A stretch of 19,323 bases of DNA from Chitinispirillales bacterium (lineage in GTDB: Bacteria > Fibrobacterota > Chitinivibrionia > Chitinivibrionales > Chitinispirillaceae): the NCBI GenBank assembly GCA_031254445.1, contig JAIRUL010000248.1:1-19323 (forward strand), read 5' to 3'. Below the pieces are notes generated by a model. The model was not told the origin of the DNA. It worked only from the letters and a program-made list of their open reading frames with translations, and searched no databases. Position numbers and translations under genes: made by a program. The number at the start of each line of letters is the position of its first letter. Within the stretch, counting starts at the first letter, position 1. Positions 770-8,227 of this stretch are shown here, in pieces.

Positions 770-840
770 GGGGGCGATACGCGGCGGCCCGCCTGTAAAT
801 CCGGCGGTTTTGGCGGTTCAAACGGCCTGCCGCCGTAGGA

Positions 841-863
841 GCGGATCTATGTATCCGCCTTTT
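841..863 (+). terminator. weak hairpin with short T tract after earP
   Basis: Arms GCGGAT (841-846) and ATCCGC (853-858) enclose the loop CTATGT and are followed by CTTTT. It resembles a weak intrinsic terminator between earP and efp; the stem is only 6 bp, so read-through is likely. Confidence 0.35.
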
Positions 864-1506: not shown

Positions 1507-1650
1507 GACGTTGACGTTGACTTTGACTTTGACTTTGTGTGGCGGCTTTAGCCGCCACACGTTATGAAGCCGTAGGCTTCGTCTGAAAAAGATTTAAAAG
1601 ATTTTGATTTTAAATCAACATCAACGTCAACACCAACGTCAACATCAACG
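1507..1650. repeat. intergenic repeat element A (hexamer arrays flanking two hairpins), likely bidirectional terminator
   Basis: Left array of five hexamers (GACGTT twice, GACTTT three times, 1507-1536). Then a perfect 10-bp stem with arms GTGTGGCGGC (1537-1546) and GCCGCCACAC (1551-1560), loop TTTA. Next a second stem GAAGCC/GGCTTC (1566-1571, 1575-1580) with loop GTA, then an AT core (reverse of AAAATCTTTTAAATCTTTT). The right array is six NNCAAC hexamers (1614-1649). The two arrays are roughly complementary (GTTGAC against GTCAAC), so a transcript could fold end to end. It lies between convergent efp and the minus-strand gene ending at 1652, a fitting place for termination on both strands. 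Confidence 0.8.
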
Positions 1651-1651
1651 G

Positions 1652-2404
1652 CTACGGCACATACCCGCAATAATTCCGCACAAACGACGTAAACGCCCGA
1701 TCAAACTCCGCGCTGTAGGCAAGCTCGGGGTTCCTCTTCGCGTTCATAAGCTCGTCTTTCTGCCATTTTTTCGTCTGCAATATGAGCTCCTGCGTGGATA
1801 TGCGCAGTTTCATTATCCTGTCTTTATCTGTCTGCCACATGTTTACCCGCGCGTCGGACTTAGGCGAGTTGAGCGACACGTCGTAATCGTCCTCGCGCAC
1901 GAGCGCCGTCTTTGGCAGCGTCTCCGGCGAATCTTTCGCGGCGCACATCATGACGTGGAAACCGCGCAGGAAGCGGGGGAAGAACGAGTCTAAGTAGAGC
2001 GCGCGGCCCCAGTTTTGGGTTCTCAGTATCTCCTCGAAATCTTCCAGCGTGGCGACGAAAGTGCGGCAGACCTGATTTATCGTTTTGGCTTCGAAATCGG
2101 AGAGGAGGTAGGTTATATTCGGCAGCTCGCGGTAGACGGTGGCCTTGCCGTTTTTATCGACCTGCATGTCGTCGCCCGGGGCGATGATTGTGTGGGAGGC
2201 GTCGTTCTCAAAGTAAATTTTTACTTGGTTGTACTTGTTGCGCTCGTTGTCGAAAGCTATGTTGATTTTCGCGAGGTGCACTTTAAACGGCACGCGCGGC
2301 GCCACGGTGTGATCGGGGGGAGCCGCGCTGTCGCCGTCGCCGTAGATGCTGGCTGCGGCTAAGAGAATTACGGCGGCAAGGCATGCCTTATGCGACGGCT
2401 TCAA
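1652..2404 (-). CDS. secreted protein of unknown function
   Basis: I do not recognise this 250-residue protein. With the TTG start at 2404-2402 it opens MKPSHKACLAAVILLAAASIYG, a good Sec signal peptide (basic n-region, hydrophobic core), so it probably acts in the periplasm or envelope. A longer frame reaches a TTG at 2476, but that would place about 24 extra polar residues before the signal and cover a promoter-like AT-rich stretch, so the inner start is preferred; a purine stretch (GAAAGGG) precedes it. The mature part has a segment resembling a small beta-rich domain (VPFKVHLAKINIAFDNERN, then YFENDASHTII) and a charged, helical C-terminal half with many K/D/E residues. It lies downstream of the P-loop ATPase but is separated from it by a terminator-like hairpin, so it is probably transcribed on its own. 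Confidence 0.75.
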   Translation of the reverse strand: MKPSHKACLAAVILLAAASIYGDGDSAAPPDHTVAPRVPFKVHLAKINIAFDNERNKYNQVKIYFENDASHTIIAPGDDMQVDKNGKATVYRELPNITYLLSDFEAKTINQVCRTFVATLEDFEEILRTQNWGRALYLDSFFPRFLRGFHVMMCAAKDSPETLPKTALVREDDYDVSLNSPKSDARVNMWQTDKDRIMKLRISTQELILQTKKWQKDELMNAKRNPELAYSAEFDRAFTSFVRNYCGYVP

Positions 2405-2474
2405 TGTGTTTGCGCCCTTTCGTCTTTTGTGCGGCGTTACACTATTAAGATAAATATATGGCGGGCGGAATTGC

Positions 2475-2506
2475 AAAAAAATATGCGGGCGGCTTTGAAA
2501 CCGCCC
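2475..2506 (-). terminator. intrinsic terminator-like hairpin after the P-loop ATPase gene
   Basis: Reading the minus strand, arms GGGCGG (2506-2501) and CCGCCC (2492-2487) close a loop of eight bases that can pair further (TTT/AAA). A run of seven T follows at 2481-2475 after five intervening bases. It sits 32 bp past the stop of the ATPase gene and ahead of the next gene. Confidence 0.55.
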
Positions 2507-2537
2507 CGCGCGTCTGCGGCAAACGCCAAAAATGAGC

Positions 2538-3251
2538 TTATTTCGCCTCTTCCGCGATAAGCATGACCTGCGGGTCGAGCTTGAGGTGCAGGCTGTCGGG
2601 GGAGGGAAAGAGGTCGTGGTCTTTTACTAAATGCAGGTGGATATAGCTTTCCCTCGGCTCCATGAGAATCAGTATGGACGCGGCGTCCATGAACGGGGAG
2701 AGGATGGTCGGGACGCCCTTCTCGTCGCGGGACGGGTCGTCGCGGTGCGTCGTCGCGCTGAACCAGAGGGAGATTTGCAGGTCGGCGGCGAACTGCTTGA
2801 AGGCGTCGAAAGCCTCCGGCGTCGACTTTGAGAAGTCGTAGCCGTCCACCACCACCACGTCGGCCACGAAATGCCCCTCCTGCATCATGGTCTTCAGGCT
2901 GCCCAGCATCTTGCCGATGGTGACGCTGTCCTGCTTGAAGTTCATGATGACGCGGTTGCGCGTGACTTGGTCGAAGATGTCCGTCGTATCGGCGATATTG
3001 AGCCGCTGCGCTATCTCCTTTAGAATGTCGTTGTACCACGAGACGATGTGCGCGGTGTTGGCCGCGAAAGAGACGTGGATGATGTTCTTCCCCTGCAGGA
3101 GCTGGTCGGTGGCTATGTGGACAAGGCAAGCGGTCTTGCCCACGCCCTTGCGGGCCGCGATGATCCCGATATTGCCCTTGCCTACGCCGCCCTGGGTGGA
3201 CTTCTCCAAGATCCTGAGCGGGCTTTTTGATATTAGCTCTTTGCTGATCAT
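2538..3251 (-). CDS. RecA/DnaB-fold P-loop ATPase of unknown role
   Basis: The 237-residue product has a Walker A motif ARKGVGKT (residues 33-40) at the start of a beta strand and a Walker B-like strand VVVVDGYDF with Asp136. Spacing and the sequence around them (GIIAARKGVGKTACLVHIA, then GKNIIHVSF) fit the RecA/KaiC/DnaB C-domain fold rather than AAA+ or ABC proteins. No membrane segment or extra domain is seen, so it is probably cytoplasmic. The start ATG at 3251 is preceded by AAAGGGA at good spacing; an upstream GTG at 3284 lacks support. It lies 94 bp downstream of fusA on the same strand and may be co-transcribed with it. Similar stand-alone P-loop proteins of undefined function occur in deltaproteobacteria and relatives, as far as I recall; no substrate can be given. 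Confidence 0.8.
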   Translation of the reverse strand: MISKELISKSPLRILEKSTQGGVGKGNIGIIAARKGVGKTACLVHIATDQLLQGKNIIHVSFAANTAHIVSWYNDILKEIAQRLNIADTTDIFDQVTRNRVIMNFKQDSVTIGKMLGSLKTMMQEGHFVADVVVVDGYDFSKSTPEAFDAFKQFAADLQISLWFSATTHRDDPSRDEKGVPTILSPFMDAASILILMEPRESYIHLHLVKDHDLFPSPDSLHLKLDPQVMLIAEEAK

Positions 3252-3345
3252 AACGCTAAATCCCTTTTTTGTTCTTTTGCGCACGGGCGGGCGCTGCCGC
3301 CTACCCGTACATGGTAATATACGATATTGTTTACCCGCGTTCTGC

Positions 3346-5439
3346 CTATTTCTTCTTAGCGTCCTTACTCTTCGCCTCTAATTGTTCCTTTTTCAGCTGC
3401 TCGGCAATGCTGTTCGGCACCTTGCTGTACTTTAGGAACTCCATCGTGAACTCCGCCTTACCCTGGGTCAAAGAGCGCAAGACGGTCGAGTAGCCGAACA
3501 TCTCGCTTAGGGGCACCTCCGCCTCCACGGTTGAGAACTGGTTTTCTTCCGTGGTCGAGATGATGATGCCGCGGCGCTGGTTCACGCTGCCGAGCACGCT
3601 GCCCTGGAACTCGGTCGGGGTCTCCACGGCCACTTTCATGATAGGTTCGAGGATCTCCGGTTTAGCTTTCTCGAACGCCTGCCAGAACGCCCCTATCGCC
3701 GCCTGCTGGAACGCGATGTCGGAGGAGTCGACGGGGTGGAACTGGCCGTCGTCTATCGTGAGTTTCACGCCCACGATGGGGAAGCCGATGATTTTGCCCT
3801 TGCCGAGGCACGCCTTAAAGCCCTTGTCGCAGGAGGGGATGTACTCGATGGGGATCACGCCGCCCTTGATGTTGTCGACGAACTCGTAGTCTTGCTCGCC
3901 GTTGGGCTCCAATAGCCCCGCCACGCGCCCGTACTGGCCGGCGCCGCCGGTCTGCTTTTTGTGCGTGTAGTCGAAGCGCGCCGACGCGGTCACCGTTTCG
4001 CGGTAGGCCACCTGCGGCATGCCGGTTTCGATCTCGACCTTGTACTCGCGGCGCATACGCTCTATGTAGACGTCTAAGTGCAGCTCGCCCATGCCGCGGA
4101 TGATCGTCTCGTTGGACTCGGGGTCGACGAACGTGCGGAATGTCGGATCCTCCTTAGTGAACCTGTTCAGCGCCTTGGACATGTTGTCGGAAGATTTTTT
4201 ATCGACGGGCTTGATGGCCAGCGATATAACTGGCTCCGGCACGAAGATGGAGGTCAGCGCGTAGTTGAGGCCGTTTTCGGTGAACGTGTCGCCGGAGGCG
4301 CACTCGATCCCGAAGAGCGCCACGATGTCGCCGGGCCCCGCCTCGCTGATGTCTTCGGTTGACGACGCATGCATACGGATCAGCCGCCCCACCTTGAAAC
4401 GCTTGCCGCTGCGCGTGTTGGTCAGCTCAATGCCTTTCTTGATGGCGCCTTGATATATCCTTATATAGGGGAGCTGCCCGTACTGCCCGTCTTCGAGCTT
4501 GAACGCTAGGGCGACCATGGGCGAGCCGTCTTCGGGTTTCAGCCCTACGGACGCCTCGTTGTTGTCTAAGTCTAAAGCGTTGTTGTCTATGTCGCCGGGG
4601 TTAGGCAGGTAGTCGACGACCGCGTCCAACAGCTTCTGTATGCCCCGATTCTTGTAGGCCGACCCCATGAAGACCGGCGTGAGGTGCAAAGACAGGGTCC
4701 CTTTCCTGATGGCCGCCATGATCTGCTCTACCGTCTCCGTTCCCTCCAAATAGCTCTCGGCGAGTTCGTCGGAGTACATGGACACCGCGTCGAGCATCTC
4801 GTCGCGCTTGTTCTTCGCCTCCTCTAAGAGGCCGGCGGGGATCTCCTCTTCGCGGATGTTCTCGCCGTTCTTGCCGTCGAAGTAGACGGCTTTCATGGTC
4901 ACGAGGTCTACGACGCCCTCGAGTTTGTCTTCGAGCCCTATGGGTATCTGCACCATGATGGCGTTGTGCCCGAGCTTCTCGCGCAACTGCGCGGCCACGC
5001 GGTAGGGGTTCGCGCCGGAGCGGTCGCACTTGTTGACGAAAGCTAACCGCGGCACCCTGTAGCGCTTGAGCTGCCTATCTACGGTAATGGACTGCGACTG
5101 CACGCCGCCCACCGAGCAGAGGACGAGTATGGCCCCGTCGAGCACGCGCAGCGCGCGCTCCACCTCGATGGTAAAGTCGACGTGCCCCGGCGTGTCGATG
5201 ACATTGATGGCGTGGTCGCGCCACGTGACGTTGGTCGCCGCCGAGGCGATGGTGATCCCGCGCTCGCGCTCAAGCTCCATGGAGTCCATGGTGGCCCCCA
5301 CGCCGTCCTTGCCCTTAACCTCGTGGATCGCGTGGATTTTGTTGCTGTAGAACAAAATACGCTCCGTAAGGGTGGTTTTGCCGGAATCGATGTGCGCGCT
5401 GATCCCGATATTGCGCATCTTTTCAATGTTGTACGCCAT
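3346..5439 (-). CDS. fusA: translation elongation factor G, EFG1 (spirochaete/mitochondrial-like) class
   Basis: EF-G is the GTPase that drives tRNA-mRNA translocation on the ribosome. The 697-residue protein is full length with G1 AHIDSGKT (15-22), the switch I region ending RGITI (60-64), G3 DTPGH (82-86), G4 NKCD (136-139), and domains II-V to the end, including the domain IV segment [15 protein letters not shown]. The P-loop has serine (HIDSGKT) where E. coli-type EF-G has alanine, and [19 protein letters not shown] matches the pattern of mitochondrial GFM1 and of the bacterial spd-type EFG1 group. The C-terminus ends in a lysine-rich tail (KSKDAKKK). The start ATG at 5439 follows AAGGAAAAGG. 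It is not in a str operon (no rpsL, rpsG or tuf beside it), which is common for this class. It faces away from the flagellar genes. Confidence 0.96.
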
Positions 5440-5489
5440 AAAAACTTACCTTTTCCTTCACACTTTGGGGTTTGGATTAACGGGGAGTA

Positions 5490-5518
5490 AAAATAATATA
5501 ATGTTTTATGAAAGTCAA
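5490..5518 (-). promoter_or_regulatory. sigma70-type promoter for fusA
   Basis: On the minus strand TTGACT (5518-5513) is followed after exactly 17 bases by TATTTT (5495-5490), in an AT-rich setting about 50 bp before the fusA start. The -35 matches 5 of 6 and the -10 matches 4 of 6 consensus bases. Confidence 0.55.
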
Positions 5519-5545
5519 ATAAAAAATATTTTTTTAGTCTTTCGG

Positions 5546-5825
5546 TTTTGATTTTGATGTTGACTTAAAATCAAATTCTTTTAAATCTTTTTCAGACGAA
5601 GCCTATAAAAGTCAATTTCTTTTAAATTCTTTTTTCAGACGAAGCCTATAAAAGTCAATTTCTTTTAAATTCTTTTTTTAGACGAAGCCTACGGCTTCAT
5701 AACGTGTGGCTCAGACGAAGCCTATAAAAGTCAATTTCTTTTAAATTCTTTTTTTAGACGAAGCCTACGGCTTCATAACGTGTGGCGCAGAGCCGCCACA
5801 CAAAGTCAAAGTCAAAGTCAAAGTC
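5546..5825. repeat. intergenic repeat element B, internally expanded
   Basis: Same family as element A but in the opposite orientation. It begins with TTTTGA hexamers (5546-5565), then the AT core (5574-5592), then the hairpin modules, and ends with four AAAGTC hexamers (5802-5825). The distal stem is GTGTGGCG/CGCCACAC (5780-5787, 5794-5801). Inside, a unit starting AGACGAAGCC recurs at 5594, 5637, 5680, 5713 and 5756, spaced 43, 43, 33 and 43 bp. The 76-bp block 5637-5712 is repeated almost exactly as 5713-5788. It lies between divergent genes, so termination of a neighbour is not its obvious purpose. Confidence 0.85.
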
Positions 5826-5846
5826 TTAAAGCCAAAACCATTAGAA

Positions 5847-5906
5847 CCTACTAGGCAAATTTTTCCCTTCCATCGGAAAAAAATGCCTAGTAGGCAAATT
5901 TTCCCC
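5847..5906. promoter_or_regulatory. paired dyad, candidate enhancer (activator) site for the sigma54 promoter
   Basis: CCTACTAGGCA (5847-5857) and TGCCTAGTAGG (5884-5894) form a perfect 11-bp inverted repeat; inside it TTTTTCC (5860-5866) pairs with GGAAAAA (5875-5881). Each CCTASTAGG is nearly self-palindromic, and CCTASTAGGCAAATTTT also recurs as a direct repeat 39 bp apart (5847 and 5886). The sites lie about 175-215 bp upstream of the start predicted from the sigma54 promoter at 6038, a typical range for NtrC-family activators. Confidence 0.5.
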
Positions 5907-6037
5907 ACCCATTATTGACGAAACCATTAATGCCTATAGCAATACCCACCATGCAAAAAACGGCCTTTTTATGCGTTCTAAGCGGTTTTATCGGGAACTA
6001 TCCCTTATTAATCGTCATTTTTTTCAAAAACTTTAGC

Positions 6038-6053
6038 TTGGCACGAAAATTGC
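6038..6053 (+). promoter_or_regulatory. sigma54 (RpoN) promoter of the flagellar operon
   Basis: TTGGCACG (6038-6045), four bases, TTGC (6050-6053): the -24 GG and -12 GC are correctly spaced and the match to the RpoN consensus TTGGCACG-N4-TTGC is complete. Transcription would start near 6064-6066, leaving a leader of about 50 bases before flgB. The sequence between fusA and flgB contains no competing strong sigma70 signal close to flgB. Confidence 0.88.
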
Positions 6054-6116
6054 GGTAATTTATTAATGTATGAATATTTGCGTGCGTTTGCGGGTAAAAC
6101 CGGGAGGCGGGACGGT

Positions 6117-6548
6117 ATGAATATGTTAAGCAGCGCGATTGTAAACAAAACCAACGTGCCGGTGCTGTCGGGCGGGATGAACGCGGCTATGCTGCGCGCC
6201 CGGGTCACGGCAAACAACATCGCCAACGTCAACACGCCAGGGTTTGCGCGCCTGGACGTCAAGTTCGAGGAGGAGCTCAGGCAGGCCTTGGACAGGACGC
6301 GGCTTCAGGGCAAGCGGACGGACGGCGGGCACTTGCAGATTGGGCGGCTCGACTTAAACGAGGTGGGGCCGACGGCGTACCGGCCCTACGACCCCACCCA
6401 GCCGAGCGGCGTGAACAACGTCGACATCGACACGGAGATGTCGAAGCTGGCGGAGACGCAGATAATGTTCGGCTATATGCACAAGCTCAATCAGGGCGTG
6501 TTCAATAAGTTAAACGCGGCGATTCAAGCGCGGTCGATTCAGCAGTAG
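6117..6548 (+). CDS. flgB: flagellar basal-body rod protein FlgB
   Basis: FlgB forms part of the proximal rod that crosses the periplasm and joins the MS ring/FliE to the distal rod. The 143-residue product has the rod-family N-terminal signature NNIANVNTPGF (about residues 41-51) and ends with the C-terminal coiled region containing MSKLAETQIMFGYMHKLNQG, both as expected, and the length fits the family. The ATG at 6117 has GGGAGG at 6102-6107 with a 9-base spacer; an upstream ATG at 6066 in the same frame lies at the predicted transcription start and is disfavoured. It is the first gene after the sigma54 promoter and heads the flagellar block, as in many flgBC-fliE operons. Like other rod proteins it is exported by the flagellar type III system without a cleaved signal. 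Confidence 0.95.
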   Translation: MNMLSSAIVNKTNVPVLSGGMNAAMLRARVTANNIANVNTPGFARLDVKFEEELRQALDRTRLQGKRTDGGHLQIGRLDLNEVGPTAYRPYDPTQPSGVNNVDIDTEMSKLAETQIMFGYMHKLNQGVFNKLNAAIQARSIQQ

Positions 6549-6641
6549 CGCTATCGGGAATGTTTAATGCCGCGATTTGGCTTTGGCAGTAATTAATTAA
6601 TGCGGCGATGGATGTTTGACTGCACCGTAATAACACTGTAG

Positions 6642-6661
6642 GGGCCGAATATTTTCGGCCC
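6642..6661 (+). other. hairpin just upstream of flgC ribosome binding site
   Basis: Perfect 8-bp arms GGGCCGAA (6642-6649) and TTCGGCCC (6654-6661) with loop TATT. It ends 7 bases before the flgC AAGGAG. No T run follows, so it is more likely an mRNA stability or processing structure than a terminator. Confidence 0.6.
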
Positions 6662-6680
6662 TGTGTTTAAGGAGAAAAAA

Positions 6681-7187
6681 ATGTCACAGGTCGGCGGAAT
6701 CTTTTCGGGTCTTGAAATAAGCTCTTCGGGCATGAGGGCGCAGCGCATCCGTCAGAACACCATATCGTCCAACCTGGCCAACGCGGAGACGACGCGGACG
6801 GCGGAGGGCGGGCCGTACAGGCGGCAGTTTGTGGTCTTCGAGGCGCCGTCAAACAAGCGCGACACGCGGATACTGAACGACAAGGTGTCGCTCTACGGGG
6901 CGTCGACGCAGAGCAACCACCTCCCTATCCCGCCGTCAAACTTCCCGAGGGACGAGCGCTTCTTCGGCCGCGGCGTGGACGTGACGGAGATTCGGTCGGA
7001 CACGAGGCCGGCGAGGCTTGAGTACAACCCGGGGCATCCGGACGCGGACGAGGAGGGGTACGTGGCGATGCCGAACGTGAACGTGATAGAGGAGATGACG
7101 GACATGATCGCGGCGACGAGGGCCTATGAAGCTAATGTCACGGCGTTCAATGCTATAAAGAATATGCTTATGCAGACGCTGTCGTAA
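6681..7187 (+). CDS. flgC: flagellar basal-body rod protein FlgC
   Basis: FlgC is the second proximal rod subunit. The N-terminus carries GLEISSSGMRAQRIRQNTIS followed by SNLANAETTRT, the rod-family motif, and the C-terminus reads VAMPNVNVIEEMTDMIAATR then AYEANVTAFNAIKNMLMQTL, diagnostic for FlgC. At 168 residues it is longer than the usual 135-150; the extra length is in the variable middle (about residues 45-115), where FlgC proteins differ. ATG 6681 is the start because AAGGAG (6669-6674) lies 6 bases before it; a GTG at 6663 would swallow that site. It follows flgB after 132 bp containing a hairpin, a wider gap than normal for this pair, and is followed directly by repeat element C. Confidence 0.95.
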   Translation: MSQVGGIFSGLEISSSGMRAQRIRQNTISSNLANAETTRTAEGGPYRRQFVVFEAPSNKRDTRILNDKVSLYGASTQSNHLPIPPSNFPRDERFFGRGVDVTEIRSDTRPARLEYNPGHPDADEEGYVAMPNVNVIEEMTDMIAATRAYEANVTAFNAIKNMLMQTLS

Positions 7188-7266
7188 CTTTGACTTTGAA
7201 TTTAAAGTCAAAATCTTTTAAATCTTTTGGGAACGGGGCTCAGCCCCGTAACGCCCCGCTGGGGCG
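7188..7266. repeat. intergenic repeat element C (GC-rich hairpin version)
   Basis: Begins immediately after the flgC stop with CTTTGA hexamers (7188-7199), then the shared core AAAATCTTTTAAATCTTTT (7210-7228). Two stems follow: ACGGGGC/GCCCCGT (7233-7239, 7243-7249; loop TCA) and CGCCCC/GGGGCG (7252-7257, 7261-7266; loop GCT), joined through TAACG. Layout equals elements A, B and E although the stem sequences are unrelated. Confidence 0.75.
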
Positions 7267-7291
7267 CTAAAAGCGGTAAGGAGACTGGCTT

Positions 7292-7588
7292 ATGAATATC
7301 AACGGAATAGGCGGCGCGGCAGGGTCTTGGGCGCAGTTTGTCAAGCTGACGCAAGCGGCCCGCGAACGGAACACGGCTCTCGCTGCGGATAACAAACCGG
7401 CCATTCAAGCGCCGCAAAAGCAACCGCTAACGCAGCAATTAACGCCAACGCAAATGCCGCAAATCAACGCGGCTATTTCAATTAAGCATGGCGCGAATGT
7501 ATATTCATCTATACAGTCCGGCCAAAGCATCCGCGCGGCAACGCCCTCGCAGAGCAGGCCGGGGGGGATATTCGACGCATATGCGTAA
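7292..7588 (+). CDS. unrecognised 98-residue protein between flgC and fliE
   Basis: I do not recognise this protein. It is supported as a real gene by AAGGAG at 7278-7283 with an 8-base spacer to ATG 7292, and by position inside the flagellar block in the same direction. The first 28 residues (MNINGIGGAAGSWAQFVKLT and on) look like an amphipathic helical segment; the rest is rich in Gln, Pro, Ala and Ser (KPAIQAPQKQPLTQQLTPTQ) and is probably disordered. There is no Sec signal or membrane helix. The disordered, polar composition and the MNxNxIG-like opening, which loosely recalls the FliE start MDSINSIG, would suit a small substrate or chaperone of flagellar type III export, but this is speculation. 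Repeat element C precedes it and D follows it, so it is isolated from its neighbours by structured spacers. Confidence 0.65.
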   Translation: MNINGIGGAAGSWAQFVKLTQAARERNTALAADNKPAIQAPQKQPLTQQLTPTQMPQINAAISIKHGANVYSSIQSGQSIRAATPSQSRPGGIFDAYA

Positions 7589-7592
7589 GCGT

Positions 7593-7669
7593 TAAAAAAG
7601 TCTTTAAAGTCTTTTAAATCAAAATCTTTTAATTCTTTTGGGGACGGGGCTCTGCCCCGTAACGCCCCG
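7593..7669. repeat. intergenic repeat element D (GC-rich hairpin version)
   Basis: AAAGTC-type words at 7597-7613, the core in the form AAAATCTTTTAATTCTTTT (7621-7639), then the stem ACGGGGC/GCCCCGT (7644-7650, 7654-7660; loop TCT), AACG, and a truncated second arm CGCCCCG (7663-7669). It is closely similar to element C from the core to the second stem, but the right half of the second stem is missing. Confidence 0.75.
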
Positions 7670-7684
7670 ATAGATTAGCCCCCC

Positions 7685-7749
7685 TTTCAATGCCCCCCCT
7701 CCAAAGGAGGCGGGGGGGCACTGTTTGAAAACAAGCGCCCGTTGGGCGC
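7685..7749. other. two further stem-loops between elements D and E
   Basis: First stem: TTTCAA and TGCCCCCCC then TCC on the left (7685-7702), loop AAA, right side GGA, a 3-base bulge GGC, GGGGGGG CA (to 7720) and TTGAAA (7724-7729). Second stem: GCGCCC/GGGCGC (7735-7740, 7744-7749) with loop GTT. Neither is followed by a T run. With elements D and E they fill the 330-bp gap before fliE, in which no other gene is seen. Confidence 0.6.
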
Positions 7750-7778
7750 GGTAGGGTCAAAGACGGCGGGGTACGGGG

Positions 7779-7889
7779 TTTTGATGTTGACTTTGACTTT
7801 GTGTGGCGGCTCTGCGCCACACATTATGAAGCCGTAGGCTTCGTCTGAAAAAGATTTAAAAGATTTTGATTTTGATTTTTATCTTTTGA
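7779..7889. repeat. intergenic repeat element E
   Basis: Same orientation and stem version as element A: TTGATG/TTGACT hexamers (7779-7800), stem GTGTGGCG/CGCCACAC (7801-7808, 7815-7822), stem GAAGCC/GGCTTC (7828-7833, 7837-7842; loop GTA), then the reversed AT core and GATTTT hexamers to about 7880. It ends about 15 bp before the fliE ribosome binding site. Confidence 0.8.
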
Positions 7890-7918
7890 CCCTGGCTTTA
7901 ATAAGGAGCACTGCCATC

Positions 7919-8227
7919 ATGGACAGCATCAACTCAATAGGCCCAATTCAAGGCGGGGCGTTGCCCCGCAAGGCTGGTCCGGCGTTTCAGCAGCAGGGCG
8001 CTGGCGGGGTGTCGTTTACGGAGATGATGAACGGCTTTCTGAGCGACGTGAACGGTTTGCAGAAGCGCGCCGACGAGTCGGTGAAGAAGCTGGCGTCCGG
8101 CGAGATCACCGACGTGCATCAGGTCATGACGGCTTCCGAGGAGGCGAAAGTGGCGTTCAACTTAATGATGGAGATGCGGAACAAGGTTATGGAGGCGTAT
8201 CAGGAAGTCTTGAGGATACGGCTGTAA
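7919..8227 (+). CDS. fliE: flagellar MS-ring/rod junction protein FliE
   Basis: FliE sits between the MS ring (FliF) and the proximal rod and is among the first substrates of flagellar export. The 102-residue product has the usual length. The central part (FTEMMNGFLSDVNGLQKRAD) and the C-terminal block VAFNLMMEMRNKVMEAYQEV are the family signature, with the invariant RNK-AYQE pattern. ATG 7919 is preceded by AAGGAG (7903-7908) with a 10-base spacer; a GTG-type longer frame at 7886 would start within repeat element E and is rejected. It belongs to the flgBC-fliE set but is parted from flgC by about 730 bp, which hold the 98-residue gene and three repeat elements, whereas these genes are usually contiguous. 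Confidence 0.93.
   Translation: MDSINSIGPIQGGALPRKAGPAFQQQGAGGVSFTEMMNGFLSDVNGLQKRADESVKKLASGEITDVHQVMTASEEAKVAFNLMMEMRNKVMEAYQEVLRIRL

Follow-up and report, generated by a model that had tools for sequence, protein, structure and literature searches.

The contig JAIRUL010000248.1 of a Chitinispirillales bacterium (assembly GCA_031254445.1), analysed here over its full length of 19,323 nt (the window), carries members of a genus-wide family of dispersed repeats, in which different species have amplified different hairpin versions. The unit of the family, termed an arm, combines hairpins of one of two unrelated sequence types (I and II) with arrays of TTGAC- or TTGAT-containing hexamers (TTGAY), and arms lie singly or as inverted pairs (composites), largely outside genes. 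It is very probable that the family is a mobile or recently amplified extragenic repeat. With moderate confidence, we read its members as non-autonomous mobile elements that lie between genes and are specific to this genus, working in the manner of the repetitive extragenic palindromes (REPs) and bacterial interspersed mosaic elements (BIMEs). A first-pass annotation of the window had described five elements, A to E, and proposed either a mobile extragenic repeat or selection on structure, a proposal supported here by copy number, paired stem changes and empty sites. The window is a complete contig (C254) of a genome of 1.97 Mb in 301 contigs, 70% complete, hereafter G000; its congeners are denoted G001 to G007, whereas G010, G019 and G047 lie outside the genus.

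The copies beyond these five, anticipated by the first-pass annotation, were counted with two covariance models: R1, which draws on 15 type I arms (nine from G000, six from G007), and R2, which draws on 15 type II heads taken from five species. In a sample of 521,074 bases (81 of the 301 contigs of G000, the window included), R1 found 87 type I arms and R2 17 type II heads at an E-value limit of 0.01; the counts include those seeds that come from the sample itself. Up to 150 candidates were scored in each whole genome, and 150 of 150 is given as at least 150. By this measure type I numbers at least 150 in G000 and at least 150 in G007, with no R1 match in G001 to G006 or in 17 genomes outside the genus, while R2 matched 55 times in G000, at least 150 times in G002, five times in G001, six in G003, three in G004, twice in G005 and twice, weakly, in G007. 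R2 was absent from G006 and from 16 of the 17 outside genomes, the single match being in G010 (E 1.3e-5). A 16-mer of the shared core, with up to two mismatches, gave 556 matches in the whole of G000 versus 3 for the reversed pattern, and a DNA search of 59 relatives gave matches in six of seven congeners and weak ones in two of 52 others (G019 and G047). The expansions are unequal between close species: G007 and G003 are sisters (FliF identity 88%), and the type I multitude of the former stands against none found in the latter, as do the type II copies of G002 against the few in G001. The FliF of G000 is most similar to that of G001 (81%) and its EF-G to that of G003 (92%), while an unrooted FliF tree groups G000 with G003 and G007 (support 0.955); type I could be old in this group.

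Beyond these genomes, a genome-contig search with a pattern of core plus type II head found one locus, JAITUP010000168.1, whose letters equal those of G002 contig C266 where compared, and viral contigs gave no match to the type II head pattern or to the stem 1 pattern. The first-pass annotation recognised no named family, in agreement with the lack of any match at gathering score in the window among 4227 Rfam families; at E up to 1, the region 5500-7950 gave three chance-level matches (E 0.43-0.67), far below gathering score, which were rejected. A literature search over titles and abstract openings found no description of this repeat family.

Presence at orthologous sites is lineage-specific. 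The flgC-h98 and h98-fliE gaps hold element C and the D-E composite in G000 and, by eye, neither in G001, G002, G003, G004, G005 and G007, and R1 and R2 have no match in these gaps of the six congeners; these six are congeners that have the locus, and G006 gave no FliF match. Three composites of G007 correspond to nearly empty sites in G003: one at about 4969-5172 of locus L159, just before tRNA-Ser, faces 13 unaligned nt, another at about 12835-13098 of L159 faces 10, and a third, at about 3124-3445 of L171, faces 15. At a fourth G007 site (site 3), G003 has 49 nt of other sequence. Because almost no copies were found in G003, gain of the composites in G007 is a simpler reading than loss.

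The type I arm reads, hairpin 1 first: RTC arrays (repeats of 6 and 9 bases), TTTT, AGAC, hairpin 1, ATAAC (or ATATG/ATAGG), hairpin 2 and an AAAGTC array. The hairpin feet are GAC(G), ATAAC/ATATG/ATAGG and TTGACTTT. Composites are tail-to-tail arm pairs around a conserved middle. Upstream of the arms lie partial copies that stop inside the first half of stem 1, as one, two or three units in 23, 7 and 1 arms, respectively. Flank statistics did not locate the element terminus, the arrays blurring the end. In the window the parts are placed as follows.

1507-1650, minus strand: element A, a solo type I arm (R1, 97.1 bits)
1510-1533, plus strand: A, TTGAC array
1537-1560: A, stem-loop 2, with the linker next
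1566-1583: A, stem-loop 1
1587-1605, minus strand: A, core, exact over 19 bp
1614-1631 and 1638-1649: A, pieces of the opposite-sense array
5546-5825, plus strand: element B, a type I arm with tandem truncated copies (R1, 82.2 and 52.9 bits)
5547-5564: B, array
about 5574-5592: B, core with one mismatch (by eye; the 16-mer core search also matches there)
5681-5698 and 5757-5774: B, two stem 1 copies
5780-5801: B, full stem-loop 2
5805-5822: B, opposite-sense array
7188-7266, plus strand: element C, a type II head (R2, 45.4 bits)
7210-7228: C, core, exact
7233-7249: C, head hairpin
7252-7266: C, second hairpin, CGCCCC/GGGGCG
7593-7889, no single strand: D and E, one composite (R1, 85.9 bits; R2, 73.1 bits)
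7621-7639, plus strand: D, core of the type II arm, one mismatch
7644-7660, plus strand: D, head hairpin
7692-7719 and 7735-7749: D-E, further hairpins, with the middle next
7780-7797: D-E, TTGAY array
7801-7822, minus strand: E, stem-loop 2 of the type I arm
7828-7845, minus strand: E, stem-loop 1
7849-7867, minus strand: E, core, exact
7865-7876: E, TTTGATTTTGAT array behind the hairpins

Element A lies in the convergent gap where the 3' ends of efp and of a hypothetical gene face each other, B between the divergent fusA (EF-G) and flgB, C (which begins TTTGAC) between flgC and h98, and D-E, about 300 bp long, between h98 and fliE; the partial units of B terminate inside stem 1. The window also holds fliF and fliI, and the names flgB, flgC, fliE and fliG are presumed from the open reading frames (ORFs). 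Cores, stems and arrays were thus located where the first-pass annotation had placed its elements, and the 19-bp core that it described is shared by all five. Its stems GAAGCC/GGCTTC (stem 1) and GTGTGGCG/CGCCACAC (stem 2) recur in A, B and E and its head stem ACGGGGC/GCCCCGT in C and D; the CGCCCC/GGGGCG stem, assigned to both C and D, is found in C only. A second array of opposite sense, likewise described for A, B and E, exists in A and B, while that of E has the same sense as the array before its hairpins. Where D and E had been taken for separate elements, they are better regarded as two arms of one composite, because 7593-7889 matches as a unit at several other sites of G000 (e.g., in contigs C111, C46, C6, C156 and C51); the order type II, middle, type I was found again in three clusters defined by regular expressions. 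A chance origin of the core repeats is excluded: 50 windows simulated by a first-order Markov model contained no match to the core. Folding z-scores range from -3.3 to -7.0 for A, B, C, the D head and E, and the middle piece of D-E folds no better than shuffles (z -0.88).

The first-pass annotation had looked to compensatory stem changes in other copies, and these are seen, though some alignment measures are weak. Stem 2 reads GTGTGGCGGC/GCCGCCACAC in G000 and ATATGCGGGG/CCCCGCATAT in G007, with variants at the base of the stem, and in a hand alignment of five versions six of ten pairs are altered on both sides. In a MAFFT alignment, 94.8% of cells pair, where shuffles give 87.5%, doubly changed cells number 19 versus 6.9, and the covariation score is 0.218 versus 0.090, none of these values being reached by any of 500 shuffles. 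The four doubly changed pairs are a weaker measure, reached by 26 of 500 shuffles, and the count of further pair types, reached by all 500, speaks against covariation. Stem 1 is invariant in this alignment, into which only its 6-bp version was taken, and in G007 its sequence comes in at least five versions. The type II heads hardly vary among five species, while the hairpin behind them differs. The alignments support a stem whose sequence changes while its pairing stays, that is, a persistent structure. The paired changes are not proof of selection, because template switching at imperfect palindromes can alter both arms together.

The placement of the repeats was analysed in the same sample of G000, in which 237 anchor matches (4 in a reversed-sequence control) fall into 90 clusters and a gene prediction of 436 genes (83.6% coding), which overlooked h98 in the window, defines 359 gaps between neighbours. 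Outside predicted genes lie 222 of the 237 matches, and of the 15 inside, nine are in low-scoring short ORFs (score up to 22) and six touch better-scoring genes. As the first-pass annotation had noted for the window, all gene contexts are occupied: clusters were placed in 7 of the 35 convergent gaps, 8 of the 44 divergent ones and 26 of the 280 tandem ones. Orientation was assessed in 45 clusters, after removal of low-scoring ORFs that overlap anchors, of in-gene clusters and of clusters without a gene on both sides. Among 30 tandem gaps with a cluster, 17 have it nearer to the upstream 3' end, and 20 solo arms in such gaps point along transcription in eight cases and against it in 12; there is no clear orientation preference and no sign of a directional regulator. 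The repeats appear to break the assembly, 43 of the 90 clusters lying within 250 nt of a contig end.

Regular expressions sorted the 90 clusters into 13 pairs of type I arms, three pairs including type II, 47 with one type I arm, 12 with one type II arm, three with two type I arms in plus orientation (I+ I+), one I- I+, and 11 in which only cores or partial copies were recognised. The pair count is a lower bound, E having been missed. Since these scans keep the best match and skip weaker copies (in the window, the stem 1 of E and the head of C), they undercount and are biased towards single arms, and the covariance-model counts are preferred; contig ends, which cut some arms, also affect the arm count.

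The arrays suggest how such arms might move. Arrays of at least three TTGAY hexamers number 75, and 66 of them have an anchor within 150 nt (none in the reversed control); the spacing of the pentamer is near-fixed on one side of the hairpins. On the strand reading from hairpin 2 to hairpin 1, a TTGAY starts 8 nt before the foot of stem 2 in 58 of 61 arms of G000; in G007 the distance is 8 or 10 nt in all 34 arms, which makes 92 of 95 arms in the two genomes. It also occurs within 70 nt behind the hairpins in 56 of the 61 and 30 of the 34 (86 of 95 together), where 22.5% would be expected from element-free gaps. These counts leave out arms whose stretch extends less than 20 nt before or 70 nt behind them. 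ISDra2 inserts 3' of TTGAT from single-stranded DNA (PMC2806898), and the movement of REPs is attributed to Y1 enzymes, which recognise a hairpin and the tetranucleotide at its foot (PMC6006769). By analogy, arms with two or more hairpins between TTGAY arrays would insert into intergenic gaps, singly or as inverted pairs. An enzyme recognising the hairpins would probably act in trans, because the elements spread without genes of their own, and movement would most plausibly pass through single-stranded DNA, TTGAY serving both as boundary and as target, a route made attractive by the near-fixed spacing. We hold this single-strand mechanism as a tentative possibility. A more specific version, in which the arrays serve as boundary and landing pad, the arms hop single-stranded with exchangeable hairpin sequences on a fixed plan, and the enzyme lies outside PF01797, seems rather unlikely as a whole.

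Several results weigh against this mobile reading. The arms share descent, so that the TTGAY counts are not independent; by eye, TTGAY stands at the insertion point in two of the three empty sites (G003 sites 2 and 4, not site 1), which are too few for a conclusion, and no target-site duplication is evident at any of the three, where junction alignment is imprecise. The REP-type Y1 transposase suggested as a partner by the first-pass annotation was not found, PF01797 being absent from G000, G004, G005, G006 and G007. The absence is weak evidence for G000 and G007, because both of these type I-rich genomes are only about 70% complete; G004 and G005 are more than 90% complete without it, but carry few copies. 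In the 9-14 kb examined around the Y1 genes of G001 to G003, neither a core nor a stem 1 nor a type II head was found, and the hairpins flanking these genes are of other kinds. The one Y1 gene of the type II-rich G002 is not arm-flanked within the stretch examined, which has only one hexamer array, about 3 kb away. Pfam recognised no transposase among the eight genes flanked by arms on both sides (an alcohol dehydrogenase, a solute-binding, a HEAT, a TPR, a flagellin, an amylase-like, a diaminopimelate epimerase and a secretion ATPase gene), nor among the eight of 15 multicopy proteins scanned (a Clp-type ATPase among them has a TniB match, taken as incidental).

As to the Y1 genes themselves, those of G002 (L152, about 6222-6750) and G003 (L153, about 2767-3370) are single IS200-like genes between GCACCCC-type hairpins; these CACCCC hairpins were rejected as relatives of the repeats and taken for the ends of the IS200-like genes, since in the stretches examined only the two beside each gene occur. 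In G001 (L154, about 6834-8100) a Y1 transposase ORF adjoins a long hairpin run with the words AACGGTTTGGAACCGTTCC, and it is possible that this gene is a REP-associated tyrosine transposase (RAYT) with its own repeat array.

A family of miniature inverted-repeat transposable elements (MITEs) moved by a DDE transposase, in which the outward ends of the composites (TAAARTCAAAATC...) would come from the terminal inverted repeats of an insertion sequence that is lost or was not sampled, would account for the inverted-repeat build of the composites (which solo arms lack), for their MITE-like size (anchor spans of 140-281 bp) and AT-rich ends, and for the observation, by eye, that 12 of 13 type I pairs combine two different stem 2 versions, as a fixed unit would. 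It is doubtful nevertheless, since single-arm clusters outnumber pairs by 59 to 16 of the 90 in the regular-expression scan, no target duplication is evident at the three empty sites with their imprecise junction alignments, and the sample gave no recognisable insertion sequence with ends of this kind, DDE families not having been searched individually. Replication slippage could have expanded the arrays and partial units while gene conversion or array recombination spread the modules, with no transposition at all; the variable length of the 6-mer and 9-mer arrays and the 31 arms with one to three tandem truncated units ending inside stem 1 are in keeping with this. Yet slippage cannot place elements in gaps that are empty in congeners and leaves hundreds of dispersed copies unexplained, and the three G003/G007 sites come close to insertion without an array, with flanks unchanged. 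As a full account it is quite unlikely, and slippage probably acts alongside transposition.

The paired stem changes, strong folding and intergenic location would also suit a functional RNA, such as a terminator, mRNA stabiliser or processing site under structure selection. This we judge very unlikely, as solo arms in tandem gaps point both ways (eight same, 12 opposite), and the elements are found in divergent gaps and are not conserved at orthologous sites. Terminator-like matches in elements are confined to the outer array of A (1650-1619) and to D-E (7749-7735), whereas the paired hairpins in A, B, C and E lack them, and the region holds 14 such matches versus 9.4 (sd 3.3) in shuffles.

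The preferred reading, that of mobile elements resembling REPs and BIMEs, is best judged beside the known systems. Like REPs, BIMEs and REPINs (PMC3116915, PMC3733652), the family consists of dispersed extragenic hairpins that occur as singlets, inverted pairs and tandem clusters with compensatory changes. Unlike the RAYT-linked forms, its arms have at least two hairpins, without GTAG or GTGG at the hairpin foot and with TTGAY and 9-mer arrays, and no RAYT was found in G000, at its 70% completeness. There is a closer likeness to the CGTC-tagged REPs, a known group of palindromes without known transposase (PMC3733652): on the other strand, hairpin 1 ends in ...GGCTTCGTC or ...GCCCCGTC, so that CGTC follows the palindrome in most copies. 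The ending is GGCTTCGTC in A, B and E, and GACG precedes the stem in 14 of 15 aligned type II heads (GACA in the other); element C, outside that alignment, is an exception with GAACG (CGTT instead of CGTC). In A, B and E, however, stem 1 has 6 bp and a loop of 3, where the four described CGTC families have 8-9 and 4-5, it begins with G-C rather than A-T, the CCA tail was not seen, and the attached second hairpin, the composites and the arrays are further differences (PMC3733652). In the pneumococcal BOX elements (PMC3049150), as here, modules are folded, central ones may be absent or repeated, and the whole has proliferated within a lineage; the likeness is one of description, without sequence comparison, and the modules here are hairpins of two unrelated types plus hexamer arrays. 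The ends of IS200/IS605 elements such as ISDra2 (PMC2806898) similarly have hairpins near a TTGAT or TTGAC pentamer on one strand, whereas here no transposase gene lies inside, the pentamer also occurs in arrays, and insertion 3' of it is only putative. The family belongs among the small extragenic palindromic repeats, and by the features tested it is neither a GTAG REP nor any of the four described CGTC families.

Other repeats were seen in the same genomes. Behind the first gene of the window (835-859), a GTAG stands before a GCGGAT/ATCCGC hairpin, much as in the usual GTAG-tagged REPs, and similar GTAGGGGCG hairpins occur elsewhere in G000 and in relatives. Two further dispersed repeats (L171, 13562-13631, and L172, 2189-2279, of G007) are common to G007 and G003, with many copies in the latter. 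Before flgB (window 6038-6055) lies TTGGCACG-N4-TTGCGG, which resembles the consensus of a sigma-54 promoter; a similar TGGCACG...TTGC precedes flgB in each of the six congeners compared, several of which also have GGCAAATTTT-type motifs upstream of it.

The present work describes a new family of parasitic-looking bacterial repeats, dispersed, structured and lineage-specific, with unequal expansions in sister species. The genus is compact, its close species carry from none to hundreds of the alternative versions, and empty sites are at hand, so that genome comparison within it offers a route to the boundaries of the elements, their choice of target and the enzyme that would move them.

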